Shown: positions 1,284 through 21,247 of the stretch, one piece after another | Position numbering within the stretch: the first letter of the stretch is position 1 | Layout of the letters: each line of letters begins with the position of its first letter | Origin: Anncaliia algerae PRA339 | Taxonomy: Eukaryota > Microsporidia > Tubulinosematidae | Length of the DNA stretch: 22,886 nucleotides | Direction of reading: 5' to 3' | Assembly: GCA_000385875.2 (NCBI GenBank) | Contig: KK365185.1 | Coordinates: 1-22,886 of the forward strand | The notes under the pieces: model-generated | Database searches by the model: none | What the model was told of the DNA's origin: nothing | The model's input: only the letters and a program-made list of their open reading frames with translations | Made by a program: the position numbers and the translations under genes

Positions 1284-3650
1284 TTAATCATCTAATTTTG
1301 TAAATCCAAACCAAACATTAAAACTTGCATTTCCAGCTGCATTATTCTTAAAGCAGAAAGTATATTCCTTATGCTCTGTATAGATCATTCCACTATTTAT
1401 AAGATCAACTGAATCATTATCCTTTTGAAGCTTTGAATGAATTTGTAAATTGGAAGGAATTTTCCAATGGAGCAAATCATCTTTTTCTGGGAAAATAGTT
1501 ACAGTTAATTCCTTCTTAGAGGGTAGGAATAAATTACCTACCAAGAAAAAGCATTTATCCGTTAACTGCTTCATTTTTATTTTACTCCATTGGTTGTATT
1601 TGACAAAAGCTTTAAACTTTAAAATATATTTTCCCTCATAAGAAGGAAATACAAATAAAAAATTTGCTGAATTAGGAATCAATATTTTTCTAAGGACAAA
1701 TTTATCAGTATTTTCTTCATAAATTGATAATTGTATTTGCGTTTCTGCTTTATTAAAAAATTCTAAATAAACACTGCCTGTTTTTGCAGAATAAGGAATT
1801 TCAAGGCTTTCTGCCCAACTAAATTCATCAAATTTATCATTGTTCTCTAAAGAAGTAAACTTTGTGTAAAACTTAAGGAGTGTAGCAAAATATAGAACAT
1901 CATGACTAATTATTTTTTCCCTTGAAGTAATTTTAAGGTTTTCTTCATCAATTTCGTATAAGATGATGTTTTTGTTCTCGGAATGAGAATCAATGATAAT
2001 ATTTTCTTCTTCCAAGGAATTGACAAGGAAATCTTTGCCTTTATCTAAAATTATTGTCGTATAAACACCATTTTCCTTTTCCGTCTGTGCTAAAATTACT
2101 CCACCAAATAAATGTAATCTTATAAAACTATCAAATAATATTTTTTTATTTTTTAGCTGTAATTCTTTAACGAACCAATCATCTTTGTTCATATTTTTTA
2201 TCTTCTCAAATAACTTTTCCATTTCAGGTTGTTTTATAGATAAGTTACAATTCTCAGGATAAATTAATTCTTTTTTAAAATAAACATTTGCCTTTTCCCT
2301 GCTAAAAGAGAGAATAGAATGTAATTTTACTGAACCTAATGTTTTAGATTTCTTATCCAAAAATTTTCTTGAAATCCTTTCCACTCTTTGTTCAGTAAAT
2401 TCTAAATTTTTAGATAAAACAAATTGTAAAATTAGGAGGAATTTTTTTTTGATTTCAAAATATATAAATTCATTTGTTGTTATTCCCTGGAAAATAATGC
2501 CATCTTCTGATTTTATTCTGTAAAACTGATATGAAGCATCTGTGAAGTAAATTATTACAATAGATACGAATTCATCCAATTTTTTTATTTGTTTTAGCCC
2601 TACAAAGGTGGAAAAAAGATCTTTAAAAAATGAAAAATCATAAAAAGAATCAAAGGGAAATTTTTTTTCTAAATTTAAATCATATCTAATTATTCTATGA
2701 GTTTCATTAATAAAGTACTGACCTCTTCTTTTAGTATAACTTTCATATTTTTTCATGATTTTATAGTCAAGACAAGAATATGTCCTAATATTTAACTCGA
2801 TTTCTTCGGCTATACTCTTGTAGTTAGCAAAATCAATTTTATATTCAGGATGTGCTATGTTTTTTAAACTTGGAACAAGCATTGGAAGATAAAATGAATT
2901 CCAACAAGGATAAATCACATTTTTGTTCAAAGTATACATAAATATCTTTTTAAGAGTTTTAATTTTTAAATGATCCTCTTCTCCTTTAAAATAGACTTCA
3001 AAATTGGGATTTGAAACAAAAGTAGCATCAAATCTTGTAAGATGATTTTTAGAAGGAATGCGAAAAATTACATCCCCTTCAAAAGCAATTAATGAGATTT
3101 CTAAATCATAGATTAAATTTCCTGGCAAAGTAACAGTCATATTCACTGTAACTTTTCCATTAAACACAATTTTACTTAATAACAAAACATGATTAAATTC
3201 ATCCTCATCCTCTTCATCAGAAGACTCCTCCTTCATGCCCAACCCAAATATAATTTCATTATAATCATCCTTTCCTAGGCACTTAGACTCCTTTACATAA
3301 GGGCAGTCTTTAAATGATAATTTATTAATTTTTATACTTTTAATTAATTTTTGTTTCAAAGCAAAAGAAAACTTTTTTAAAATCAGATACTTCATCTTTT
3401 CTAAGAAATAAAAATTATCCTTTGCAATTTCAAACCATCTTTGAATTATAAGATTAACCCAAGCCAATTCTTTTGTAGGTTTTATTGATTCAGCAAAAAA
3501 TATTTTTTGTCTTTCAGACATAGATTGATGACTTAGTTGTAACTTCTTTTTAACAAAGGATGTTCTTGGGAATAGCAGCCTTGTTACTATGTTCCATAAA
3601 AGTATCTTTAATAATAATCCTGTAATTACTCCAAAAATAAAATTAAACAT
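1284..3650 (-). CDS. Membrane-anchored SMP-domain lipid-transfer protein (putative)
   Basis: This intron-free 788-residue ORF opens with a hydrophobic anchor (about residues 2-27) followed by a basic stretch. Residues about 60-262 look like an SMP (synaptotagmin-like, mitochondrial, lipid-binding) domain: ELAWVNLIIQRWF at the start matches the E/W-x-N-x-I-x-x-x-W opening of E-Syt, tricalbin and Nvj2 proteins, a helix rich in Ile/Phe/Lys follows, then beta strands (LLLSKIVFNGKVTVNMTVTL, LEISLIAFEGDVIFRI), ending in WNSFYLPMLVP. Such proteins usually tether the ER to another membrane and carry lipids through the SMP tube. An acidic insertion (EESSDEEDEDE, about 141-151) interrupts the domain. 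The remaining 500 residues are not recognisable; beta-rich segments could be diverged C2-like modules. The start (3650) is supported by the anchor immediately after it. The stop is TAA. The SMP call is by eye and would need a profile search. Confidence 0.72.
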   Translation of the reverse strand: MFNFIFGVITGLLLKILLWNIVTRLLFPRTSFVKKKLQLSHQSMSERQKIFFAESIKPTKELAWVNLIIQRWFEIAKDNFYFLEKMKYLILKKFSFALKQKLIKSIKINKLSFKDCPYVKESKCLGKDDYNEIIFGLGMKEESSDEEDEDEFNHVLLLSKIVFNGKVTVNMTVTLPGNLIYDLEISLIAFEGDVIFRIPSKNHLTRFDATFVSNPNFEVYFKGEEDHLKIKTLKKIFMYTLNKNVIYPCWNSFYLPMLVPSLKNIAHPEYKIDFANYKSIAEEIELNIRTYSCLDYKIMKKYESYTKRRGQYFINETHRIIRYDLNLEKKFPFDSFYDFSFFKDLFSTFVGLKQIKKLDEFVSIVIIYFTDASYQFYRIKSEDGIIFQGITTNEFIYFEIKKKFLLILQFVLSKNLEFTEQRVERISRKFLDKKSKTLGSVKLHSILSFSREKANVYFKKELIYPENCNLSIKQPEMEKLFEKIKNMNKDDWFVKELQLKNKKILFDSFIRLHLFGGVILAQTEKENGVYTTIILDKGKDFLVNSLEEENIIIDSHSENKNIILYEIDEENLKITSREKIISHDVLYFATLLKFYTKFTSLENNDKFDEFSWAESLEIPYSAKTGSVYLEFFNKAETQIQLSIYEENTDKFVLRKILIPNSANFLFVFPSYEGKYILKFKAFVKYNQWSKIKMKQLTDKCFFLVGNLFLPSKKELTVTIFPEKDDLLHWKIPSNLQIHSKLQKDNDSVDLINSGMIYTEHKEYTFCFKNNAAGNASFNVWFGFTKLDD

Positions 3651-6187: not shown

Positions 6188-7045
6188 ATGTCTACTATTC
6201 AAACTCAATATATAATATTTTGCATATTTAATATCATTGAGATGGCAATTTTCGTAATTTATACTAAAATAGAGATAAGATACTATGAAATCCAAGGCAT
6301 TCGAAAGCCAAATATATTTGTATACAATATTTTAGCATTTTTTTTCAACAACCTGGTTGGATTTCTATCTATATCATTTGCTTTACTAACAGACAATTAT
6401 ACGGCCTTTATTCTATATTTTTATTGGAGCATCAATGTTTTATCTTTTGCCTTTGTTTTTAGCATGTATTCTCCTAATGGTTACATATATCTTGGATATA
6501 TAGTTGTTACAATAGCAGAAATATGGTTCATAACATATTACAGAAGATCTTTATCAAGGGACATGTTGTTTCGCAGAAATAGAAGGGTAGGCTCCAATTT
6601 AAATCTAAAAAATGCTTTAAGGGTAAGTTATAAATTAATTAGATCAAAGATTTTACGAGAGTTACTAGAATGGTGGCTTATTATTTTTTGTTAAGAATAA
6701 TATTTACTCAAATATTTTATGGTAGACTTTATAAAAATCAATCCCAGAAAAATAACTACGTACTTTGTTCTTTAACTTTAATTGACTTTTTAGCAACATT
6801 TTTTGAAAAAGAAGAGAATTATGTCGCAAAGTTTATTTCTCATATTGCGATTCTTTGTATTATTGGTACAATATTTCATGCACTTTTAATCAAATTCAAG
6901 GACCTTGAAATGTAAGTAAAATTTAATTAGCGTAAATATTTGTAGAATATTATTTGATATGCTAAGGTTCATTGTTTACCTGATATATAATTTATATGAT
7001 AATTTAAATTATGGTAAGGGACTTAAAGAACTAAGAAACATCTAA
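6188..7045 (+). CDS. Array gene 1: multi-pass membrane protein, subfamily A, three exons
   Basis: Exons are 6188-6622, 6643-6911 and 6931-7045, separated by 20-nt and 19-nt GTAAGT...TTAATTAG introns (phases 0 and 2). The spliced product is 272 residues. Hydrophobic segments lie near 6-26, 42-68, 72-94 and 98-116 (exon 1), 155-175, 184-199 and 208-226 (exon 2), with a further one in exon 3. Conserved blocks are LFRRNRRVGSNLNLK (about 127-141) in a basic loop, FFEKEEN (about 198-204), and NYGKGLKE near the C terminus. I chose the ATG at 6188 because it gives the same 435-nt first exon and the same STIQ/NTVQ opening as the paralogs. An in-frame ATG at 6140 would add 16 basic residues. This is the most divergent A member (YWSINVLSFAF, GYIYLGY). 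Function is unknown; it is likely membrane-embedded. The stop is TAA. Confidence 0.85.
6623..6642 (+). other. Intron 1 of array gene 1 (20 nt, phase 0)
   Basis: The sequence is GTAAGTTATAAATTAATTAG. Removing it joins AGG to ATC AAA GAT and brings exon 2 into frame so that it aligns with the paralogs. Retention shifts the frame and ends at 6694. Confidence 0.87.
6912..6930 (+). other. Intron 2 of array gene 1 (19 nt, phase 2)
   Basis: The sequence is GTAAGTAAAATTTAATTAG. It splits an Ile codon (AT|C). Retention produces TAA immediately at the donor. Confidence 0.87.
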
Positions 7046-7677
7046 CAAATTATTTAACTATATATTTTACATATGGATCAGACATAAACGATATTTCATT
7101 TGTTCATGAATATAGACTTATAAAAAATACCTCTCAAGAAAATGATAAAAAATTTAGAGTATTATGTTTTGAATTTCTAAAGCCAAGCTCTCAGATTAAT
7201 AAGAACTTGGTTAAAAATAATTCTAAGACATATATGTTTATTTTGATTGAAAAATATCGTTTCAACTGTTCTTTTCAATTAAGACACAATTTGTGCCATG
7301 ACATCTTATATTATTTCATTTTCAATATTTAGAATTTGCATTTAAAACTGCAACTATACCAATTATGAGCTATTATATTCTTTTAAAATATTATGGCTTT
7401 TGTTGGCATTATCACTTGTACTTTAAATATGGAATATATATCTGTGTATTTTTTGATATTCTGTATTATTAAAATTTACTTAAGCCAAATTTTCATTTAG
7501 GATTCGTAAAAAATTGTGATTATTTAACAAAAATTGATTCTAAAGGTAGAAAACCATTTTTTATTGGCATTTATAGATTTATACCATACAAAATTTTCTT
7601 ATAGTATATCATTCCCTAAGACAATAATTAGTGGAACTCAAGAATTGGATGCATATTTTGACATTAAAACCATTTCG
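7027..7677 (+). pseudogene. Degraded coding-like stretch, frame-shifted
   Basis: Immediately after array gene 1 there is a 101-codon stop-free frame without an early ATG (7027-7329; it includes segments such as SFVHEYRLIKNTSQENDKKF and TYMFILIEKYRFNCSFQLRH). The reading then moves to another frame (7302-7601), open for 100 codons apart from one TAA at 7470, containing KNCDYLTKIDSKGRKPFFIG. A 50-codon stretch (7528-7677, ending GTQELDAYFDIKTIS) returns to the first frame. No GTAAGT intron explains the shifts. Residue use (Gly, Pro, Cys, charged pairs) is more protein-like than the A+T background. I do not recognise the parent gene. It may belong with the open frame at 8000-8323. Confidence 0.4.
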
Positions 7678-7999
7678 TAAGCGAAAATATAAAAGACCTA
7701 TTTAGGCAGAAATAGTTGACCTATTAAATTTTTAAAAAAAATATGATTTACTTTACATTCTTCATCATGCGAATTAATGGGTTTAAGTATTTTTTATAGT
7801 TAATCTCCCTTTTTAGTTCTCAAAAATATTTTTACAATATTTTTAAAATAAAACTTCATTTTTTCAATAATTTGCAAACTTCTTAATTCGAATTAATGAA
7901 ACTATAATTGCGATCTGAAATGAAATTCATATAAAAAATATAAGCCGGAAATTTTCAAACTATAATTGATTTATGATTTTTTAAACATATATATAGGAT

Positions 8000-8323
8000 T
8001 TGTCCCTAATTATATCAAATAACTACCCACATTATTTTATGATTTCATCTTTATATTATTATGCCCGAAGAGGTTATATTATAAATAAGATCATTTGCAT
8101 GGGAAAATACACAAACGGACTTAATAAAACTATATGGTCGTTGAAATATTTTTTCGATGGAAACAAAATTTCTATAGTTAAAAGATCAATAGCTCCTAAA
8201 ATTATAAGAGAATTTTGGGGGAATTATTTTTTGATCAACTCTTCAAATCTTCAAGCTAACAATATAATTTCATTGTTGTTAATACTTTATAGAATTGCTG
8301 ACCCTTCAAACATCGTGTGCTGA
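8000..8323 (+). pseudogene. Coding-like 109-codon frame without ATG start, unknown
   Basis: The frame is open from 7997 to a TGA at 8324-8326, preceded by TAG at 7994. The first in-frame ATG encodes residue 14 (MISSLYYYARRGYIIN). The peptide has balanced composition with Trp, Cys, Gly and Pro: GLNKTIWSLKYFFDGNKISI, then APKIIREFWGNYF, then ANNIISLLLILYRIADPSNI. That is unusual for chance reading at this base composition. Both neighbouring frames close quickly. It could be an internal fragment of a decayed gene. I do not recognise the family and no intact flanks were found. Confidence 0.4.
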
Positions 8324-10197
8324 CCTATGATATTTATACTCTAAAGAAAATATATCCACAATAGAAAACTATGAAAAGCAAGATTTGTACTTCTAATTTA
8401 AAGAGCACAAAACCTAATCAAGAGGATAAAGAATATTACTTAAGGTCTTGTTAGTGGGATGTATTTAAAACAATTTTTTCAAGCACTAATTTCACAAAAT
8501 TAAACACGAAGTAGAAATACCTTGGTAAATTATATTTGGTGCAAGGACCATAAACAATGAGTATCTAAATGAAATTCAGATTTAAAGCAGAAATATGCAC
8601 AATGGCCCTATAAATTGAAAAATATGACATACTTTATAATTAAATATAGAAACAAGTAAAGACAGAAGAGTTGATTATTTTTTGGAGAATATTTTGAGTG
8701 ATTATCGAAATAGAGATAGGACATAAGGAAAGTTTTAAAGTTATTTTTTATTCAAGGAAATATAGGTGATTCTATGTATATTCCTTCTTTTGAAGTTTCA
8801 AATCGAGAACACACCACATTGACTAAATTATTCCTAAAAAGCCTTATGGAAGAACAACCTATCTGGTTTAACTGAACTATTTGGCCAGGTCAGAATCCTT
8901 TGGGCTCTTTCTTTATAAAAGCAAAATAATTTATTTAAATTGTACGTTTATATGAAGCATTTCCATATATCTTTTTTCCAATTTTCTTCTTCAAATAAAT
9001 TCAAAAGGTTTTGATTGAATTTTTTCTTTATTATTTATTCTGACAGGAACAGTTAGTTTTGTTCCAGTCCATATTACTTTATTAGAATTGGTTGAAATTC
9101 ATCATTGTTTATATATTCTATGGCATGATTTACAGTATTATGCCGAAATTATATTAATCCTTTTAACGATCAGTTAAAACTATAGAATCCGGCAAATCGT
9201 GTATAAGAATAAATCAATTAATATTGTAGAATTTCTTTTGATTAAAAAACGGCGAAAAATTTGCTCTAAGCACTTATACATTTTAAAAAATCCATGTGTC
9301 TTCAATAAAGTGGCCCTATTATATTTCGTTTTTCAAACTTGCTCTCAACAAATTTGACAGTAATAGTGGGCCGCCCATAGAGACATCATTTAATTTTATA
9401 CCAATAAAAATGAGCTGAATATATATTAAATCATTATTTACTATGTGGTTAAAACGCCTAGTAATTATACGAATCCTTTGAAAAAAACAATTTCTTAGAA
9501 ATAAATACGTTGTTTCAAAAAATTAAATAATTTGAATTTGATTTATAGATAAGTATTTCCTTTAATATTGTAATATGTGTTAAGCAAACATAATTAATGC
9601 TCCTGTATCTTTCCTTCATGATTTATCGAAAACGCGTTAAGCACTTTTCACACATTTCTATAATTTAAATGATATCTTTATATACACAATATTCAATAGC
9701 CGCATTTTCTTTTACTGTGATCCTTTGTGAAATATTCTTTCGGTTAACATTAAATATCATCAAAACAAATATAAAACTAAGTTTGTTCTTTTATAAAAGG
9801 TCGCCTTTGGGATTCGACATGGTCAAATGATGCAGCTTTAAAAAAAGATTAATCCTTTTATTAAATTTTTTTCTATAGAATTAAATAAATATCTGATACA
9901 ATGATATAACACACAATATTAATCGATTCATTGTAATTATTTTTAAATTATCAATAAATTATGCATTTAGTTATTTTTATAATTATTAAAGTTGTTTTGT
10001 TTTTAAATGAAAAATAAGAATATTAAACATAGAATATTTCTCTTTGAAAAATATTTTTATTTTTTACAATTGATTATTTATAATTGTTCGTTACTTCTTT
10101 TAGATTCTATAATTAATAAAACGATTGAAATAGATTACGATTTAAAATATTTTTTAAAATAGTTTAATATGTTATTAACCATTAAACAGTTTAAAAA

Positions 10198-10211
10198 TTT
10201 GACATTAATTA
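10198..10211 (+). promoter_or_regulatory. TTTGACATTAATTA element, 202 bp upstream of gene 2 ATG
   Basis: An identical 14-mer lies 199 bp upstream of gene 3, and near-copies lie about 101 bp upstream of genes 4 and 5. Fixed spacing within each subfamily suggests a shared promoter or transcription-factor element. This is inference; it could be residual duplication homology. Confidence 0.45.
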
Positions 10212-10399
10212 TAAAAAATTTATAATTTATATTACTGTTTGTTTATGACAGCTATAATTTGTATCTTATTAAACATAAAAATTACAAATATGTATTTTTT
10301 TATTCTAACCTGATTAATTACCTGTAAAAAAAAGATCTTATAATAAATAATTAAAATCAAAATTCATGTCATTATAAATAAAACAAATTCTTAGCTGAG

Positions 10400-11265
10400 A
10401 TGAATACAGTACAATCGATATATTTAATATTTTGTGTGATTTGTTTAATTCAAATAGTAATTTATATTATATATACTAAAAGGGAAATTAGAAATTACAA
10501 AAATCAAGGCATGTTGAAACCAAATATATTAATTTACAACACCTTCTCTTTTTTTGTAAACAACTTTACTACTTTTAATTGCATGTCATTTGCCATATTA
10601 ACTAGCAATTATATCTCCTTTATTTTGTTTTTTTACTTAAACATAAATATATTGTTGTTTTCTATAGTCGCTTGCATTTACTCACGAAATGGCTACTTAT
10701 ATCTTTCCTACATAATCACTCTGATTTTTGAAATATTTTTTATAGGTTATCATCGTAAATTATTCTTAAGAGAAATTTTATTCAATAGAAATAAACGAAT
10801 AGGTTCAAATTTAAATTTAAAACATGTATTAAAGGTAAGTAGAAATTAATTAGATAAGAGAATTTACTCGCATATGTAGAATGGTAGCATATTACTTTCT
10901 ATTCAGAATTATTTTGGTTCAAATCTTTTATGTAAAGCTATATCCAAACCAATCCGTAAACAATACATATATAATATGCGGAGCAGCTTTAGTAGATTTT
11001 GTTGCTATGTTTTTTGAGAAAGAAGAAAATTCAATCGCGAAGTTTTCCTCACATGTCTCTATATTACTGAATATTTTAACTATAGGATATACTCTTTTTA
11101 GAAAAATATCCGCTTTTGAAACGTAAGTTAATTTTAATTAGAGTTGATTTTTGCAGATTGTTGTTAGACTTTATCAGATTTATAGTTTACTTTTTTTATA
11201 ATTTGTATGATCATATAAATTATGGAAAAGGTTTAAAAGAATACTACAGGCAACTTAAAGGTTGA
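10400..11265 (+). CDS. Array gene 2: multi-pass membrane protein, subfamily A, three exons
   Basis: Exons are 10400-10834, 10854-11122 and 11142-11265, with two 19-nt introns (phases 0 and 2), giving 275 residues. Hydrophobic segments lie near 5-25, 42-67, 70-93, 99-116, 155-175, 182-198, 205-225 and 241-256. The topology is therefore seven or eight crossings, the last possibly amphipathic. Conserved blocks are ILFNRNKRIGSNLNLK (126-141), FFEKEEN (about 198-204) and NYGKGLKEYY near the C terminus. The start at 10400 is the first ATG in frame and fixes the 435-nt exon shared by all copies. Exon 2 begins IREFTRICRMVAYYF, matching gene 1 and gene 3 without gaps. The stop is TGA. Gene 3 is its closest paralog. 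No signal peptide distinct from the first membrane segment is seen. Function is unknown. Confidence 0.87.
10835..10853 (+). other. Intron 1 of array gene 2 (19 nt, phase 0)
   Basis: The sequence is GTAAGTAGAAATTAATTAG. Retention meets an in-frame TAA inside the intron (10847-10849). Confidence 0.87.
11123..11141 (+). other. Intron 2 of array gene 2 (19 nt, phase 2)
   Basis: The sequence is GTAAGTTAATTTTAATTAG. It splits a Thr codon (AC|A). Retention gives ACG TAA. Confidence 0.87.
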
Positions 11266-12506
11266 TGATATAAAATCAGAAAAAACAAATATGTCTATTC
11301 AGTATACTTTATAATTCATACAATTCTATAATCTCTGAACCTTCCATTAATGGTTTTTTAAAGAAAATATAGTTAATTACCATATACATTAAACGGAATT
11401 TGCCCCAACTTCCAAAATATATATAATTTTTCATTTTTATACATTCGTACACAGATAACCTAATTAAATGAATGCAAATATTATTTTGAAACTAGCTCTA
11501 TCAAAACAAAATTCATCATAATATTACCTTAAAATGATTTATTTAATAAACTGTACATATTTCCAATTCAACAATATCTTCCTGTCAATTCAAAGCTTTT
11601 ATGTGAGAATTTCTATATATTAAAGTCATTTAAAATATAAAGAACATGTCTTATTATATTTTTTCTTTAACTAACTAAAAATAAGATATATATCTGTGTT
11701 TCAAATATTTATTATATCCGTTAAGTAAAGTTAAAAGATACTTTAGTTGAAGCATCATGCTTTAATTAATATTAAGCGAACTAAATATTAATTCAATTTT
11801 TTTAAAAGGAAAGAATTGGATTAACTATTACTTATTACTACTTTCTTAATTCCATTTTCATTGGTCTCTATACTATTTTTTGTAGATACATCAAAGAAAT
11901 TTTTATAAAAGACATATGTTAACTAACAGTTTTTTTAATATAGATTAGATTATGAGAAAATTAAAATTAAAATACGAATTTTAAACATGCGGGCTATGTA
12001 AAATACTATTATTATTATTGTTGAAATAAGAAAATATCTGCTAGAACTTGTTCCTAATCATCATGATTTCAAAATATTCCTGCAATACATATAGTGTAAG
12101 AAATTAACCAATATGAATCTGGAAGGATTTGGCATGAATAAAATATTTCAATATTTCGTTTTTAGCAAGATATTTATAAGCATAATATTTTTGGGTAGAA
12201 GAAATTTTAAAAGATGATCACAATACACTTTACTTATTCAATACTATTGGAATTAAAGAATGCCAATTTTTTTTCAATTTTTACAATACATAGACATAAT
12301 TCCAATAATATACATGTAGTACTCGTGATATACAAAGGCAACACCCTTAAGAAAATTGTTATAAAGAGATTGATACAAATAAAATTTGTTTATAATTTTC
12401 ATTTTTAATGATGATGAACTTCATTAAAGGTCTAATATAAACACTTTTAAGATGTTATTTTTCTAAAAAATACTATTCTTTGATATTTCTATTAAAAACT
12501 TAATGA

Positions 12507-13662
12507 AAAAATATAAACATACATTTTATAGTTAATTATATTGGTATCAAATTTAAAATAATGGGATAATTGTTGAGATATAATAAACTAAAGGAAGGTG
12601 AAAGCAAAATTTATTCTTCTAAAAATTCTTTTGTAAAAAGAACTTGATTTATCTCTGCTATTATCCCTTTTAGGCAATTGGTGATTGTGTGGTTTCAATT
12701 AAAATTCTAATCCATTAAAAATCTATCGATAATATTAATTTTTTCTTGCGATTATTTAAATTTTATTTATATAAAGGTTGATTTTATGTAACATAATTAG
12801 TTTATCATGCCCCTTTTCTATCTTCATTCTAGCTTTTTAATAATACCTGGGATTTAATGGCAAAATTCTATAAATGATAAATTGAAAGGTTCAAGGTTTT
12901 TATTACTAGGAATCAAATCTCATATTACAAAATCAAAAAAATACATATTTAATACCTTTTTATTTTGGCTTAAAGTTTCTAATGAAGACATAATGAATTA
13001 CTTTTTTAAATATTTATAGTTTTAGTTTTTAAGGATAATGTGTTAAAATTTGTGATCCTTATAACAACAATACCGAATAATAGCAGATTTTACAAATATA
13101 TCCCATATAGTATCAAGAAACTTTTTAAGAATAAATTTACTTCATTTAATTAAGTCCTTTATCTGTATCCAAATAAGTCTCTTATCAAGGCGATAAAAGA
13201 ATTCGGAAAATTGAATTTTGAAAATTTTGTTATTTTTAGTTTACCTCAAGATGAAATTTTTTAATGCGAATAGAAAGAATTTAATCCTCGGATTATTTTA
13301 TTTATAGAAGCACGTAAGAAAATTTCCAATGAAGTTTAATAAATATGGAATAGTAAAAATGTCTTGGATTGCAGAAAAATTGATTTTGTGGCCAAGAATC
13401 CTTTTAACTAGACTATTACCTAAAGATGTTGCAATTATAGCAGATAAATTTTTACAAATATTAACAAAAGAATATAAATTTGTAATATTAAATGAAGTGA
13501 TTATGCTTATTTTGCAAGAGTTTGATATGCTATTTAAATGTTAAATATAAAACTAATTCTATCGATTTAATCATAGAAGTGAAAATCCTGCTTGAAAATT
13601 CAACTCATGATTTTTATTTAAATATGTTAAAACATAAGAAAATAGTGGAGTTTGCTATTAAA
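12507..13662 (+). pseudogene. Decayed protein-coding gene, unknown
   Basis: One reading frame from about 12507 to 13541 carries only about 14 stops in 345 codons, where roughly one in ten would be expected at this composition. Long stretches are clean: 12801-13016 has one stop in 72 codons, 13065-13193 none, and 13308-13541 none in 78 codons. The reading then continues with a +1 shift from 13501 to 13662 (54 open codons; IIEVKILLENSTHDFYLNML). Coding-like fragments include KGSRFLLLGIKSHITKSKKY, WIAEKLILWPRILLTRLLPK and DKFLQILTKEYKFVILNEVI. In-frame stops at 13194, 13212 and 13305 make it non-functional as a single protein. I do not recognise the family. It is the best evidence that these spacers are made of dead genes. 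Confidence 0.5.
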
Positions 13663-14154
13663 TGATTATGGGAATCATGACTGAAAAAACACGGAACTTC
13701 TTCAAATGTGTTTATTAAACTTTACTACTTAATTTATAATATTGTATATTCTATATGGGACAATAATTACATTTACAAATTTGAAAATAAACTTGTAGAA
13801 TAGAAGAATCAAACTAGAGAATTATTTAAAAGTAAAGATTTCTAGAATATTTTTTACTTAAATACTTTAAGAAACCTATAATTTATCTTCTAAACTGATT
13901 TAAAATATCAAGTAAATATTTTTTTTAATTATAAAAAACATTCTCATTAATTTTCAATTACTTAAAATAAATATTCTATAAAAAAATAACTTCTTTATAA
14001 AATGCCCATGCTACTTTATATGCCAAAGATACCCTATAATATTTGTAATATATTTTCTTGATTTAATTTATATTATACATAGATTATATGATTTACACCG
14101 GAAAATATTTATTGAAATCATTTGTTTGTTTTTAACATATTAAATACTTGACAC

Positions 14155-14168
14155 TTTGACATTAATTA
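14155..14168 (+). promoter_or_regulatory. TTTGACATTAATTA element, 199 bp upstream of gene 3 ATG
   Basis: This is identical to the 14-mer upstream of gene 2 and at nearly the same distance, while the DNA between element and ATG is largely unalike in the two genes. Confidence 0.45.
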
Positions 14169-14353
14169 ATAAAAATTTTGTGATTTAGACTAAAATTAAA
14201 ATAATGACGTCAGATAAATTTAGAATCCTTAAGCCATAAATATATTAATATTTTTCCATTATAGCATGATTGATTATTTTTAAAAGTAAATCTTTTATCA
14301 AAAGATCAGAATCAGCGTTGTATTATTTAAGTAAAATGGTTTTTCAGGTTAAT

Positions 14354-15207
14354 ATGAATACGATACAATTAATATACTTAATATTTTGTGGGATTTGTTT
14401 AATACAAATAATAATTTATGTTGTTCATGCAAAAACAGAAATCACCTATAATGAAAATCGGGGCGTATTGAAGCCAAATTATTTGATCTACAACATTTTT
14501 TCTTTCTTCATGAATAATTTTATTACCTTTAATTGTATGTCGTTTGCTATATTAACTAGCAATTATGTATCTTTTATCCTGTTCTTTTACATTAATATAA
14601 ATATTTTGTTAATTGCTATAGTTTCTTGCATTTACTCACGAAATGGATATTTGTATCTTTCTTACATATGGATTTCAATTTTTGAACTATTTTTTATAGG
14701 CTATAATCGCAAAATATTTTTAAGAGAGATTTTATTCAATAGAAATAAACGAATAGGCTCAAATCTCTTTTTAAAACATTTATTAAAAGTAAGTAAAAAT
14801 TAATTAGGTAAAGGAATTTACTTGCATAAGTAGAATTGTAGCATATTATTTTCTATTCAGAATTATATTTGTTCAACTCTTTTATGTAAAGCTATATTCA
14901 AATCAATCCTTCTATAATAACTATATAATATGCGGAGCAGCCTCTGTAGATTTAATAGTATTATTTTTAGAGAAAGATGAGAATTCCTTTGCAAAATATA
15001 TTTCACATGTTTCTTTACTGGTGATTCTTTCAACCATAGGATTTACTATTGTCAGAAAAATATGTTCCTTTGAAACGTAAGTAAAATTTAATTAGAGTCG
15101 ATTTTTTCAGATTATTGCTAGATTTTATCAGATTTCTAGTTTACTTTTTCTATAATTTATATGATCATATGAATTATGGAAAAGGTTTAAAAGAATTTTA
15201 TAAATAA
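14354..15207 (+). CDS. Array gene 3: multi-pass membrane protein, subfamily A, three exons
   Basis: Exons are 14354-14788, 14808-15076 and 15096-15207, with two 19-nt introns, giving 271 residues. Exon 2 (VKEFTCISRIVAYYFLFRII) has no early ATG because the Met seen in genes 1 and 2 is Ile here, so it is invisible to an ATG-based ORF search. Only splicing reveals it. Blocks are ILFNRNKRIGSNLFLK (126-141), FLEKDEN (about 198-204) and NYGKGLKEFYK at the C terminus, ending in TAA. Hydrophobic segments match gene 2 one for one. The ATG at 14354 gives the NTIQ opening and the 435-nt exon 1; an in-frame ATG at 14336 would add six residues. Very similar to gene 2 (CIYSRNGYLYLSYI identical in both), suggesting a recent duplication. 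Function is unknown. Confidence 0.86.
14789..14807 (+). other. Intron 1 of array gene 3 (19 nt, phase 0)
   Basis: The sequence is GTAAGTAAAAATTAATTAG. Retention meets an in-frame TAA inside the intron (14801-14803). Confidence 0.87.
15077..15095 (+). other. Intron 2 of array gene 3 (19 nt, phase 2)
   Basis: The sequence is GTAAGTAAAATTTAATTAG, identical to intron 2 of gene 1. It splits a Thr codon (AC|A). Retention gives ACG TAA. Confidence 0.87.
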
Positions 15208-16020
15208 ACTGTTGATTATGCACAAATAGTAATATCTAAATATTCTTTATTCCTTTTATTTTAAAAATTGTAGTCCAAAAGATCCGAATCTTCGAAAATG
15301 GACTGACAAAGAACATACAAATATGATATTTACTTACTATCTTTATTAGTTTATTCCATGATTGCGTTACTTAAATAAATTAAATATAATGAATATATTT
15401 TAAATATGTCTATTATTTTGAAAGTAGCCTATCAAAAGCAAGATATTCGGAGAATTATTATTTTTTGAAACATGTACGATATTACATTTAAGAAGTATTT
15501 ATTTTTATATATTACTATTTTAAGTTCATAAAGTTATATTTTCTAAAGATTTAGTTTAGTCTTTAACTTCTGTTAAACATTTGGAAAGTAAAAATATATG
15601 TATTAAAAGAACGGCATGATTTTTAAAATTTTTTTTTGTGCGATTTTATTGCCAGAAGATTTAAGTATCTTGTATTTTAAATAAATATTATGAATTAACG
15701 TTTAAAAAATAAATATCGTTGTTCTTTGGTATGCATTCATCTTTCTTAGAGGGGGTAAATATTATCTATTGAAGCTTTTTTAAATTTGTATATATTATAT
15801 TATTTCATGACAGATTTAAATCGAATTTTAACAAATAAGGCCTAATAAGGGCCTCTATTTTGATTAAGACACATCGCGGTTTAAGAACAATTTTAATTAA
15901 ACTAAACAAACTCTAATTTGTTCAAAATAAATTTTATAACGGTTTAATTTACTAAGATTTTCCACATCACATTGGTAATATGAAATGAAATATAATATTG
16001 TACAACAAGTTGATTAATAC

Positions 16021-16043
16021 TTCCAATATTGGTCATATTGGAA
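16021..16043. repeat. 8-bp inverted repeat, 7-nt loop
   Basis: TTCCAATA (16021-16028) and TATTGGAA (16036-16043) are exact reverse complements. It may be a small hairpin or an operator-like dyad; no role is known. Confidence 0.35.
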
Positions 16044-16501
16044 CATTTACAAAACATTCTTAAATAACCCCCACTGAAATCAAATATATTTTATAAAACA
16101 AATAAAATGAAAAAAAACAGACGGTTGGTCAAGCAACCACGTCAATAATTTTTAAATTCAACTTTTTATATGTTTATCTTGATCCAGGTCCTCTCCATAA
16201 CAACTTGAACAATAAATTTTGGCAAATTTTGGTCAAAGTCATTGATATATTAATTACATATATTTTTTCCTGCAAAACTTGGGGGAATCAAAGGAATAAA
16301 TATAAAAAAATATATTAAATAAGGGTCATAAGAATGAATTCTTTTAAAATTTAAATATTTTTAATGGGAACAAACATTGCGGCAATAGAATTCAATCACT
16401 GTTCCATAGACACCTAAAAAGAAGATAATCTTATAGGCATATTCTTATTTATGAAATTTTTTTTATTTCAGATAAATTAATCCATCTGCCAATCCCACCT
16501 A

Positions 16502-16526
16502 TTTTACGCTCTTTAAGAGCGTGAAA
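16502..16526. repeat. GC-containing palindromic hairpin
   Basis: ACGCTCTT and AAGAGCGT pair exactly around a single T at 16514. A T-G wobble and three flanking T-A pairs extend the stem to about 12 bp. It stands out from the A+T background and lies about 360 bp upstream of gene 4. Confidence 0.4.
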
Positions 16527-16786
16527 TTCATTTGTTCTGATATTTATATAGTAATATAAGCATTTTATTTATTGTTAAATCAATTAAAATTAGAAATAGT
16601 TCAAATTATCACATGAATAAATATTGTTTATTCTTTAAAATAAATTAAAATTCAAGTTTGAAGCATATTTTTTAAGTTTGATTTTTTATTTATAAAATTA
16701 ATTACAGGTTCAAAACTCAATTTATATTCTGAATTTAAAAATAAAAATATGTCATGGTTATTATTAATTACCTCTTTTTGAAATCA

Positions 16787-16795
16787 TTTGACACC
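16787..16795 (+). promoter_or_regulatory. TTTGACACC element, 102 bp upstream of gene 4 ATG
   Basis: A variant of the TTTGACATTA element, at nearly the same distance from the ATG as in gene 5 (101 bp). It is followed by an A+T stretch (AATATATTA) similar to gene 5 (GTATATA). Confidence 0.4.
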
Positions 16796-16885
16796 AATAT
16801 ATTACCTAATAACAGTCATTATTTTTGATATCGAATTAGAATATTGATATCAACATTAATTTTTTAAAAATATATTATATCATAA

Positions 16886-16891
16886 CCCATG
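16886..16891 (+). promoter_or_regulatory. CCC directly before the ATG of gene 4
   Basis: CCCATG sits in an otherwise nearly G+C-free leader. CCC-like motifs next to the start are described for microsporidian genes, and this supports the chosen ATG. Confidence 0.4.
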
Positions 16892-17761
16892 AGAAAATTT
16901 TATCAGTTTTATTTAATATTTACTATATTTATAGCCATTGAAATGATAGGAGGCGTTATTTACATTAGAAAAGCTATACTAGATATAAGAAGTATCGGAA
17001 TAATTGAATACCCTACTCTTATTGATAATTCTATTGGATATTTATTTGCTAATTTTTTGACATTTACATCACTATCATATGCTGTTATCGCACAGAATCA
17101 TTTTGCTTTGATATTTTATTTCTACTTTTCTTCTACTATTTTGCTAAGTTTTTTATGCATTACTCCATTTTCAAAGCGTCCATATCTGCAACTTTCTTAT
17201 CTTTCTCCCAAACTTTTTGAAATATTATTTGTATTTTATAATTCAGATTTATATTCACAAAAGATTTTATTTATTCGAAATCGCAAGATTGGATCAGACT
17301 TAAAATTAAAAAGGGTATTAAATGTAAGTATAAAATTAATTTGATTCATATTTTTACGGTTGTTTCACGAACTGTTGCATACTTTTATGTGCTTAGGCTT
17401 TTCTTGTTTGCTATTTTTTATGGGGATACTATAAAATTTCCCTTTCCAATAGTTTTATTTGTCCTATATTTCTCATGGATATTCATTGATTTAGTAGCAT
17501 CGTTCTATGAAAAATATGAAAATATGATATTGAAAACGATATCAAATTTTGCAATATCATTTTTCATTATTGATAATATATTTTTAATTCTAAAATATCA
17601 TCGAAAATTTGAAAGGTAAGTAAATTTTAATTAGTACAATCGTTATTTCTATTGCACTGGATATTGTAAGGATAGCTATATACTGGATTTCCAACATAAG
17701 GTACCAACTAAATTTTAATTGCGGGGCCAAACAATTTTTTGAGAGGGTTGAAAAATTGTAA
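16889..17761 (+). CDS. Array gene 4: multi-pass membrane protein, subfamily B, three exons
   Basis: Exons are 16889-17323, 17344-17615 and 17635-17761, giving 277 residues. Hydrophobic segments lie near 6-25, 44-66, 71-92, 98-116, 155-172, 178-197, 208-226 and in exon 3. B-type blocks are ILFIRNRKIGSDLKLK (126-141), ASFYEKYEN (about 197-205) and, in exon 3, YWISNIRYQLNFNCGAKQFF. The start at 16889 is the only suitable ATG, is preceded by CCC, and gives the family's 435-nt exon 1. One oddity: intron 1 ends in TTG rather than TAG, so the gene either uses a non-canonical acceptor or is impaired. If intron 1 were retained, a TGA at its end would stop the protein at 151 residues. All other exons and the second intron are intact, which argues for a living or only recently damaged gene. 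Function is unknown. Confidence 0.78.
17324..17343 (+). other. Intron 1 of array gene 4 (20 nt, non-AG 3' end)
   Basis: The sequence is GTAAGTATAAAATTAATTTG. It aligns with intron 1 of gene 5 except near the 3' end, where AG is replaced by TG. Excision at this point restores the frame and matches the gene 5 exon 2 start (IHIF). No close downstream AG preserves the alignment. Confidence 0.65.
17616..17634 (+). other. Intron 2 of array gene 4 (19 nt, phase 2)
   Basis: The sequence is GTAAGTAAATTTTAATTAG. It splits a Ser codon (AG|T). Retention gives AGG TAA. Confidence 0.87.
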
Positions 17762-19586
17762 TTGATATGTATTATTATTACATGGTATCATTTTCTGAGC
17801 ATCAGTGGGTACATGCAAATACATTAATTACTAAATAAATGTAAGAAGAAGATTTTATTAAAATTTAATTTGAAATGGGAAGCAAAAATACAAATGCTGC
17901 AGTTTCGATTTATATGATTATAATTTTGATAAAAGTTACTAAAATTCTATATTTATTTTAAATAATATATTAGGTATGATATGCTGAATAAATTTTGTTA
18001 CAAGTTAATATGATGATGTTTCTACTTTTTATAAAATAAAAGACAATATATAAGCATTTTATTTTGTTGAACCAAAATTTCGAAAAAGCTTAATTTGAAA
18101 AATTTTTACCCTCCTAAATATTCTAAAAATCATCATAACAAAAATAATCCGGTATTAATATTTTTTGTTTTTTAAATTTAAATCTAATGTTTTGTTCTAT
18201 TTTAATCGGCATATGTATCTATTTAAGAAGAAGTACATTATGATAATCAATAAAATTACTTTTACGCGAATATTTACATAATTTAAATGATTTACTAACC
18301 ATGCAAGGAAAGTTCATTTTAATTTTTTTATATCTATTTCCTAACAGTGGCATATGAAAGGAGATTATGATTTTGAAATCACATAAATTCATATAGCTTT
18401 TGAAAAAACAATGAGAATATAAATGAATCAAAACATTTTGCAATTTTTAAAATGATCTATCTATGTAAATTCGGAATTATAAGATATTTAGTAATAAATA
18501 ATTTATACATTTAAATGTAACTTGTATTTTTTTCACAAGACAAATATTAAATCATAGTTTTTTATCAAAGTTTAAAATTTTTGAAACTATTATTTGATCA
18601 TGAATTTTCCTCATTATGCATAAAAATATTATTAAAATATTAAAGATTCTATGGTTTTTATAGCACAAAATTTTTAAATTTCATCATTATAAAAATATTT
18701 TTGAAATTTTAAAAAAGTCTTCTGTCGTAAAATATGTATGTGAGAACGAATTGTAAAAAAATACACAAATATTTTAAAGCAAGCATATATACTGACCGTT
18801 GTTTTTCTTCTTATTAAGTCATACAAAATATGTATATAGAATGGTAAAGAAGATCTCGATGTATTAACTTAAAAATATCCCCAACTTCTTAATATATTGA
18901 AATTAGGTTTAAACATGACAAACTAAAGTATTATAGTTTTACAAAATGCAAATTAAAGATATTCTTATGAAGGAGATTGTGAATTAGGATTTATTGTTAT
19001 TTTTGTACTTTCTATATCTTTTGAATTTCCTAATTGTCGCATTTGATATGCTGTTATATATCAAGCTTGTTTAATATTAAAACTATTTTTAAAAGCATTT
19101 TTTAAAACAAAATTATTGTAAAATACTTGACTTAAATTAGCGTCCGCAAAATGTGCAATATTTTTGATAATATTTAATAACGGAAATTTAAAATTTCATA
19201 TTCAAAATATAAAAAGTATCCCGTTTATTGCAACCATCACATCAGAATATATAATTTTTATGTAATTTTTCTACATTTTTTTGTTTGGAAGCTGTTTTAT
19301 TTTTTTTGCAATTCTATGATAATTGATGTCAATACTTTTAAAGTAATCAATCTAATATTTTATTAACATGATAAATTTATGTGAATAAAAATAGCAACTA
19401 TTATGTGAATTTTTGTAATATTATACAATTATTCTAAATATAGTTATAAAATTCAATATAAAAATTCTTTTTTACCTAGTATAACCCTTTTAATAAAAAT
19501 TTATATGTACTTTTAAATATCAGTGAATATTTTTCATTTATAGCTCATATATGTTTTTTAATCCTTAAGAAGGTATTAATCATTAC

Positions 19587-19627
19587 CTAATATCTCATAT
19601 TAAGATCTTATATTAGCAAGATATTAG
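19587..19627. repeat. Nested inverted repeat
   Basis: CTAATATCT (19587-19595) and AGATATTAG (19619-19627) are exact reverse complements. The loop between them contains its own palindrome, AAGATCTT, so a cruciform is possible. Confidence 0.35.
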
Positions 19628-20273
19628 ATTATGTTATTTATCTGTTCAAAACAGTATCTTGCATCACAATATTGCTAAATAATGCTATGTTTCGACGATT
19701 TTTGCTTAGTACTCCTATTTTACGTCATATAACATGTTCATTTTTCCCATTGTTTTATAATTTTTAAATTGTATCTTTTAAACGGTTATTTAAGAAAATA
19801 AATGCTATTCTATTTTGATATAAAAATTTGAGTAAAAACTTAAAGTTTAATTATAATAAATAAAGTTATATGTTTATCATAAAAGGTTTGGGCCTATTTA
19901 TAGTTTCGATCTACATTACACATTTTTTTCAATTTGTTAATGATACTTGATAAGTAAAGTATTGTTAGGTTGCATCTGATTGAGAATTTATTTATGGAAA
20001 TTTGAATGTTTAAAAGAAATAGCGGAAGGAAAGAATAGAATAACAAAAAATGCTTTAATTTAAAAATTTAGAAATGAAACGCCTTTTTTCTTTTGCTTTA
20101 TGGCTGTGCAGCATTTATTATAGCTACTATCTAATAAAAATACGTTAATTAATATTGTAAATATTTTATTCGAAAATATTTATTTATGTTATTATTAAAA
20201 TCCTTATCAGTCAAAACTATAAAAATAGAAATATGTCAAAAAATTAAGAATTAATATTTAATTCATAGAAATA

Positions 20274-20284
20274 TTTGACATTAG
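20274..20284 (+). promoter_or_regulatory. TTTGACATTAG element, 101 bp upstream of gene 5 ATG
   Basis: It shares TTTGACATTA with the elements of genes 2 and 3 and its spacing with gene 4. A second shared string, GCTATAATTT, follows at 20341-20350 and also occurs after the element of gene 2 (10251-10260). Confidence 0.45.
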
Positions 20285-20371
20285 TATATATTTTAAGAAA
20301 TATTTTTGTTTATAATAATAATATATTATAATTGACACGAGCTATAATTTTAAAAGAGAAAATTCTTTTTG

Positions 20372-20377
20372 CCCATG
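20372..20377 (+). promoter_or_regulatory. CCC directly before the ATG of gene 5
   Basis: CCCATG follows a T-rich run, as in gene 4. This supports the start at 20375. Confidence 0.4.
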
Positions 20378-21247
20378 AAAAAGTTTTTACAATTTTACTT
20401 AACTTTTACTTTACTTATATTGGTAGAGATGATAACTGCTGTTGTTTATATTAGGATGGTTATACAGGCTGTAAAAAGGATTGGAGTATTGGTATATCCT
20501 GCTATTGTTGATACTTCACTTGGATATTTGCTAGGAAATTTTTTGACATTTACATCATTATCATTTGCTGTTATTGCACAAAACCATTTCGCTTTAATAT
20601 TTTATTTCTATTTTTCTTTAAGCATCTTATTAAGTTTGTTTTGTTATGCTCCATTTTCCTATCGAGGATATCTACAATTCACTTATTTGTTTCCGAAGCT
20701 TTTTGAAGTAATCTTCGTATTTTATAATTCGGATTTATATTCACAAAAAATTTTATTTATACGAAATCGTAAGATTGGATCGGATCTAAAGTTAAAAAAA
20801 GTTTTAAATGTAAGTATAAAGCTAATTAGATACATATATTTAATGTTGTTGCACGAACAGTGGCTTATTTATACATAATTAGAAATATAATTATAACTAT
20901 TTTCTATACAAATACTTTAAAAATACCTTTCCCAGTCACTCTTTATACTTCATATTTTTCGTTCATTTTTATCGATTTATCAGCATCATTCTATGAAAAA
21001 TATGAAAATTTTATTTTAAAAACAATATCGAATCTATCAATATTGGCATTATTGATAATTAATATATTGTTTTTAGTTGAGCACAACAAATTCTTTGATA
21101 TGTAAGTAAAGTTTAATTAGTATCATTGTTATTTCAATTTCATTGGATTTAGTAAGACTAACTATATATTGGATCTCAAATATAAGGTTACAACTTAATT
21201 TTAATTGCGGCGCGAAACAATTTTTTGAAAGAACAGAAAAGATATAA
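20375..21247 (+). CDS. Array gene 5: multi-pass membrane protein, subfamily B, three exons
   Basis: Exons are 20375-20809, 20830-21101 and 21121-21247, with 20-nt and 19-nt introns, giving 277 residues, exactly the exon lengths of gene 4. Both introns are canonical. Hydrophobic segments lie near 6-26, 44-66, 71-92, 98-116, 155-172, 178-197 and 208-226, plus one in exon 3. Blocks are ILFIRNRKIGSDLKLKKVLN (126-145), ASFYEKYEN (about 197-205) and NFNCGAKQFFERTEK at the C terminus, ending in TAA. The MKKFLQFYLTF opening matches gene 4 and follows CCC. Near-identical stretches to gene 4, such as FVFYNSDLYSQKILF, show a recent duplication within subfamily B. It is the best reference copy for correcting gene 4. 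Function is unknown. Confidence 0.88.
20810..20829 (+). other. Intron 1 of array gene 5 (20 nt, phase 0)
   Basis: The sequence is GTAAGTATAAAGCTAATTAG. It contains CTAAT, the clearest branch-site-like string in the set, directly abutting the acceptor. Confidence 0.88.
21102..21120 (+). other. Intron 2 of array gene 5 (19 nt, phase 2)
   Basis: The sequence is GTAAGTAAAGTTTAATTAG. It splits an Ile codon (AT|T). Retention gives ATG TAA. Confidence 0.88.

Follow-up and report, generated by a model that had tools for sequence, protein, structure and literature searches.

The window analysed here is a stretch of 22,886 nucleotides from the microsporidian Anncaliia algerae PRA339 with a G+C content of 22.8%. 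It is the whole of one contig (C43) of a 78-contig assembly of 5,600,601 bases. Between positions 6188 and 21247 it carries a tandem array of five genes, each of which was read as three exons separated by two very short introns. Removal of the ten introns gave intact membrane proteins of 271-277 amino acids that could be aligned end to end (Table 1). A preliminary description of this DNA had proposed such tandem three-exon paralogs of a multi-pass membrane protein, and the five genes and ten introns were found where it had placed them, with open joined frames.

Exon 1 measures 435 nt in all five window genes and exon 2 either 269 or 272 nt. The introns are 19 or 20 nt long in all ten cases and interrupt the frame in phases 0 and 2 in every gene, as had been described. 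They all start with GTAAGT, a hexamer that occurs eleven times on the plus strand of the window. One of these copies, at position 480, lacks the remainder of the motif; the other ten are closely followed by TAATTAG (nine) or TAATTTG (one) and are distributed two per gene over the five genes. Exon 2 of gene 3, reported earlier to have no ATG, indeed contains no Met codon in frame and is missing from the list of open reading frames (ORFs) of at least 60 amino acids.

Table 1. Exons and introns of the five window genes, with intron borders as read from the motif.
Feature	Position	Strand	Remarks
Gene 1 exon 1	6188..6622	+	435 nt, phase 0 end
Gene 1 intron 1	6623..6642	+	20 nt, GTAAGT..TAATTAG
Gene 1 exon 2	6643..6911	+	269 nt
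Gene 1 intron 2	6912..6930	+	19 nt; 34 nt likewise in frame
Gene 1 exon 3	6931..7045	+	protein 272 aa
Gene 2 exon 1	10400..10834	+	435 nt
Gene 2 intron 1	10835..10853	+	19 nt
Gene 2 exon 2	10854..11122	+	269 nt
Gene 2 intron 2	11123..11141	+	19 nt; 34 nt likewise in frame
Gene 2 exon 3	11142..11265	+	protein 275 aa
Gene 3 exon 1	14354..14788	+	435 nt
Gene 3 intron 1	14789..14807	+	19 nt
Gene 3 exon 2	14808..15076	+	269 nt, no in-frame Met codon
Gene 3 intron 2	15077..15095	+	19 nt; 34 nt likewise in frame
Gene 3 exon 3	15096..15207	+	protein 271 aa
Gene 4 exon 1	16889..17323	+	435 nt; CCC immediately before ATG
Gene 4 intron 1	17324..17343	+	20 nt, GT-TG borders, 3' end TTAATTTG; next 150 nt free of in-frame AG
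Gene 4 exon 2	17344..17615	+	272 nt, conserved with gene 5
Gene 4 intron 2	17616..17634	+	19 nt
Gene 4 exon 3	17635..17761	+	protein 277 aa if TG is the splice end
Gene 5 exon 1	20375..20809	+	435 nt; CCC immediately before ATG
Gene 5 intron 1	20810..20829	+	20 nt
Gene 5 exon 2	20830..21101	+	272 nt
Gene 5 intron 2	21102..21120	+	19 nt
Gene 5 exon 3	21121..21247	+	protein 277 aa

The family is larger than the five genes first described. A genome search with exon 1 of gene 4 located eight places: the five genes of the window and, in addition, three copies on contigs C3 and C2. A ninth copy (c11), situated on C2 between two others, emerged from a search for the intron pattern and was also matched with copy c7 as the query. 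The family comprises at least nine genes with 18 introns on three contigs, four of the copies (c6, c7, c8 and c11) lying outside the window. Genome-wide searches with exon 1 of c7, exon 1 of c6 and exon 2 of gene 2 gave no further members, and very divergent copies could have escaped them. Both introns are found at the same alignment positions and in the same phases in all nine genes, with lengths of 19-21 nt, and apart from these breaks the joined frames contain no stop. The length of exon 1, which had been described as always 435 nt, is constant only within the window; it is 423 nt in c7, c8 and c11 and 459 nt in c6. Exon 3 measures 109-127 nt across the nine genes.

To place these introns in a genomic context the motif was counted in the complete assembly. 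The pattern GTAAGTN{3,9}TAATTAG gave 19 matches against five for a reversed control, so that its placement is not due to chance. Nine of the matches occur in the 22,886-base window contig, every one of them in the five genes, and 15 belong to the membrane protein family. Two others are located directly 3' of the ATG of the ribosomal protein genes eL37 and eL39, and the proteins joined across them match Pfam with E values of 1.5e-20 and 4.1e-13, respectively. The remaining two, with a 19 nt intron motif, give frames of 116 amino acids (L017, C6:224483) and 119 amino acids (L009, C2:18680) when joined; a Pfam search with these frames produced no match. The 116-residue frame has a presumed resemblance to Tim17/22.

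The version of the motif ending in TG occurs four times in the genome and twice in the control, and three of the four matches are exactly at family intron positions. The fourth (L031, C69:13549-13569) is outside any recognizable gene. Together 18 of the 23 matches ending in AG or TG belong to the family, for which duplication of a gene with two introns is the simplest cause. Without its last two bases the motif is no commoner than the control, with 46 matches (23 of them ending in neither AG nor TG) against 77 for the reversed pattern. A wider pattern (N2-32, TAAYTAG) gave 25 matches in both genome and control; since it has no power, the census is limited to the short intron class. Inspection of six further wide-gap matches together with their frames showed a clear exon-intron gene in none. 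Within the family, GTA[AG]GT at the 5' end, which is shared with eL37 and eL39, and TAATT near the 3' end, the putative branch motif, are present in all 18 introns. An AG acceptor is found in 15, the exceptions being intron 1 of gene 4, intron 2 of c7 and intron 1 of c11, which end in TG. By their motif the 15 AG-ending introns are microsporidian spliceosomal introns; that the three TG-ending introns are variants of these is unproven. The family thus accounts for the majority of the short introns that the motif picks out in this genome, and at least two of its introns appear to end in TG.

All three exons appear to be under constraint. The nonsynonymous substitution rate (dN) was lower than the synonymous rate (dS) in every exon of the pairs gene 4/gene 5 and gene 2/gene 3, with dS close to saturation. 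Between genes 4 and 5, exon 2 had a dN of 0.33 and a dS of 1.43, and the corresponding values for exon 3 were 0.12 and 1.57. The pairs involving c7 and c11 also had dN below dS wherever dS was computable; several exon comparisons were not computable and others were near saturation.

Protein searches returned relatives from A. algerae PRA109 (H311_01060, H311_02338 and H311_04900) and from read assemblies ('lgn', 'ena'), which supports a microsporidian origin. A chlorarachniophyte nucleomorph, a candidate in view of the intron size, was rejected because these relatives are from Anncaliia and the assembly measures 5.6 Mb. With exon 1 or exon 2 as query at E values up to 10, and with a full-length profile at E values up to 1, there were no relatives beyond Anncaliia and these assemblies, the reach of the searches being limited to proteins that have short words in common with the query. 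Within that reach the result fits the lineage-specific expansion suggested earlier. Four copies are 94 to 100% identical to exon-1 proteins of PRA109 or read assemblies, which places the window in A. algerae or a very close relative. H311_02338 has 132 of 141 exon-1 residues in common with c11, and H311_04900 is identical to c8 at 100 of 101 residues and has its stop inside the intron, as c8 does. Genes 4 and 5 are more distant from H311_01060, their nearest named PRA109 protein (91/145 and 88/145 identical residues). In an exon 1 tree c7, c8, c11 and their database partners formed one group, while genes 4 and 5, H311_01060 and two read-assembly proteins formed another; the c6 branch is very long and its placement unsure. 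The three PRA109 proteins belong to the same family as the window genes by virtue of exon 1, but they are annotated as exon-1 ORFs that end in or just past intron 1, whereas the window genes are read here as three-exon genes. A joined protein was not present among the public proteins in three protein searches. A paper from 2025 mentions three A. algerae genomes (PMC12558613).

Homologous exons, a common intron motif, common intron positions and phases, and constraint on all three exons indicate, at the level of sequence, that Anncaliia probably possesses at least nine paralogous genes, each split at the same two places by spliceosomal introns of 19-21 nt. The 18 introns are probably descendants of two ancestral introns that were copied with the gene and not the result of 18 gains. 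Both would be removed by the spliceosome, and a protein of about 275 residues with six to eight membrane segments would be made from the fully spliced message alone. Each of the 18 introns introduces a frame shift or an in-frame stop. Retention of intron 1 leads to a stop 2 to 23 residues past exon 1. Retention of intron 2 gives a stop at its border in all nine genes because the phase-2 GTAAGT reads N-N-G TAA, and the four exon-2 fragments of other origin in the databases likewise end at this border.

The introns resemble those of other microsporidia. Introns of Encephalitozoon cuniculi and Trachipleistophora hominis are also very short, start with GTAAGT and have TAATT near the acceptor (PMC3629993, PMC3486916); the T. 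hominis introns were sought with the expression GTA[AG]GT..TAATT N0-4 AG (PMC3486916). Ribosomal protein genes of microsporidia have been described to carry introns, in many cases directly at the start codon (PMC3629993, PMC3486916, PMC3749934), and the eL37 and eL39 introns are alike in this respect. At 19-21 nt as read here, the family introns are below the 22-76 nt of E. cuniculi, where all introns are GT-AG (PMC3629993). They further differ from known microsporidian introns in that there are two per gene, deep in the frame of a membrane protein gene family, and in that three end in TG. Literature searches for non-canonical splice sites in microsporidia or for a multi-pass multigene family of this kind gave nothing matching, and an earlier notice of Anncaliia introns is possible.

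Nine of the ten introns proposed in the window end in AG. The tenth, intron 1 of gene 4, has TTAATTTG at its 3' end, which the preliminary description did not mention. For this intron there is no AG within 150 nt downstream that would keep the frame. In intron 1 of c11 the first in-frame AG follows at 69 nt, and its use would drop 23 residues. The case for a TG acceptor appears strong for these two introns and weak for intron 2 of c7, where an in-frame AG lies 9 nt downstream at a cost of three residues. By the usual yUnAy reading, TTAAT would place the branch A about four bases from the acceptor. Because this distance is so small, the acceptor may be set by the distance from the branch point, and it is quite possible, if short of probable, that TG replaces AG in this way in two or three introns. 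Rare GT-TG introns are known from the human transcriptome (PMC4176328), which have the same GT start and TG acceptor. The human cases named are single examples, whereas here three of 18 introns in one family (two of them strong) would be of this type, as read from the sequence.

A substantial possibility, although we do not favor it, is that the TG introns are damaged, so that their host genes are young pseudogenes or carry allelic errors, leaving as functional only the six genes whose introns both end in AG. Three of 18 acceptors depart from an otherwise invariant motif, and the exclusive use of GT-AG in E. cuniculi (PMC3629993) is in line with damage. On the other hand, the exons 3' of the TG sites have retained open frames with dN below dS (in genes 4 and 5, and in the c7 and c11 pairs where computable), and the deviation is in each of the three cases a change from A to T that leaves the final G intact. 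Moreover, the c11 TG is also present in A. algerae PRA109 despite differences at nine of 141 exon-1 residues. Across the intron H311_02338 reads VSKMLIWLDI and c11 VSKMIIWLDI; since Trp is encoded by TGG only and this Trp spans TG/G, PRA109 has kept both the TG and the first base of the exon.

The introns could also be real but in part longer, with TAATT serving as the branch site and an AG further on as acceptor, which we consider improbable. In intron 2 a downstream in-frame AG occurs at +15 in genes 1, 2 and 3 and c6 and at +9 in c7, c8 and c11; genes 4 and 5 have their first one at +36. In genes 2 and 3 it follows a T-rich stretch, as in a classical acceptor, and the later AG is part of a conserved Arg codon (AG/A). 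A longer intron 2, costing three to five residues, is possible in seven of the nine genes. While removal of the proposed introns opens the frame, as described earlier, the frame does not fix the intron 2 acceptor in these seven genes; the acceptor is uncertain, and in c7 the TG that closes intron 2 as read here may not be an acceptor. For intron 1 the situation is different. An in-frame AG is absent within 90 nt in genes 1, 4 and 5 and c6 and does not occur before +69 in gene 2, c7, c8 and c11; gene 3 alone has one, at +6, and the codons following TAATTAG are conserved. Genes 4 and 5 would lose 12 exon 3 residues if the AG at +36 were used in intron 2, and the eL37 intron must end at TAATTAG for the joined protein to match Pfam from residue 2. 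The evidence that TAATT[AT]G is the acceptor therefore comes from intron 1, from intron 2 of genes 4 and 5, and from eL37.

Further points, besides the uncertain acceptor of intron 2, weigh against the three-exon model. In Spraguea lophii splicing was detected at two of eight motif sites, and the six without detected splicing were the short ones beside the start codon (PMC3749934), so splicing at such sites can be rare. Furthermore, searches of the assembly for Prp8 (PF10596, PF08083) and for U6 RNA (RF00026) found neither, which shows little as no positive control was detected. A small-subunit ribosomal RNA model (RF02542) also found nothing in the assembly (24 candidates, five scored), and all three misses may stem from gaps in the assembly or from limits of the tools.

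The Spraguea data, together with the exon-1-only proteins in the PRA109 annotation, would agree with exons that are separate short genes or with introns that are never spliced, exon 1 alone being the product as in the public annotation. We regard this as very improbable since gene 3 lacks a Met in exon 2, the length of exon 3 is no more than 109-127 nt, dN is below dS in exons 2 and 3 too, and the same two breaks recur in all nine copies. An array of frameshifted pseudogenes or assembly errors, to which the long AT-rich spacers without recognized genes between the copies could point, is largely refuted and scarcely tenable, since the nine copies, spread over three contigs, are always broken at corresponding positions by one and the same 19-21 nt motif and the joined frames have no other stop.

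The three-exon reading gives proteins with six to eight hydrophobic segments by simple hydropathy, a range that includes the seven or eight described before and extends below it. In an eight-segment model the loops on the side of both ends (even side) are more alike than the others in nine of nine pairs, which were chosen from 36 and are not independent. For genes 4 and 5 the identity is 74 of 82 positions on the end side versus 19 of 47 in the other loops. Loop 4, which has 34 residues and is on the side of both ends, contains on average 8.2 Lys and Arg residues, and the positive-inside rule would place such a loop in the cytosol. Against the eight-segment model, automatic segment counts vary among members, and an excess of Lys and Arg on the N-terminal side was found in only two of nine proteins, because the automatic count found differing segment numbers. 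The loop asymmetry is also borderline, as 17 of 276 circular shifts reach the observed difference.

A Pfam scan with six of the nine full-length members gave a single match (PH_RBD, E 0.072, in one member), which was taken as chance, and a profile search of the PDB gave none at E values up to 10, consistent with the earlier statement that the proteins match no named family. An HRD1-like topology, suggested by the loop pattern, is not claimed, Pfam and PDB having given no match. The most likely location of the protein would be a membrane of the parasite, its conserved basic face turned to the cytosol and its more variable loops to the outside, an arrangement to which the loop pattern points weakly. 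The borderline loop asymmetry is the only result in the direction of a receptor, transporter or host-interface function, as suggested before; a host-facing or uptake role would be speculative and is rather unlikely.

The array is interrupted by AT-rich spacers of 2.6-3.4 kb (7046-10399, 11266-14353 and 17762-20374) that contain small ORFs only. Family remnants were sought in the window spacers, with best matches of E 0.54 or worse, and the spacer ORFs 8000-8323 and 13329-13544 gave only Pfam matches below threshold. Genes 2 and 3 have in common a stretch of 88 alignment columns with 77% identity about 167-256 bases upstream of the ATG (10144-10229 and 14102-14187), which by its sequence is a trace of duplication reaching past the coding part. 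CCC or GGG is present at most 15 bases from the ATG in four of the nine copies, and directly adjoins it in genes 4 and 5; signals of this type near the start have been described for microsporidian genes (PMC10815200). On the minus strand the array is adjoined by a gene for a CAF1-family ribonuclease (228-1037, Pfam E 3e-19). A second minus-strand neighbor (1284-3650) encodes a protein of 788 residues with a hydrophobic N-terminal stretch for which Pfam and PDB searches gave no match; in appearance it presumably resembles SMP-type lipid-transfer proteins.

A. algerae was named as devoid of introns in a 2021 paper (PMC8476143), yet motif introns are present here in two ribosomal protein genes, and a single family has 18 more. 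Public protein sets therefore appear to truncate an entire family of membrane proteins. In Vavraia culicis the median splicing efficiency of introns is 25.3% (PMC4435813). If splicing were as inefficient in Anncaliia, most messages would give stubs, which would be either a switch or waste. The combined view, that a minimal spliceosome with a fixed branch-acceptor distance accepts TG, that in a genome described as intronless the short motif introns lie mostly in one expanded membrane protein family (18 of 23 matches), and that splicing there perhaps acts as a switch deciding whether a stub or the complete membrane protein is made, is as a whole unlikely. If the TG acceptors are real, they would show how little a reduced spliceosome requires to locate the end of an intron.

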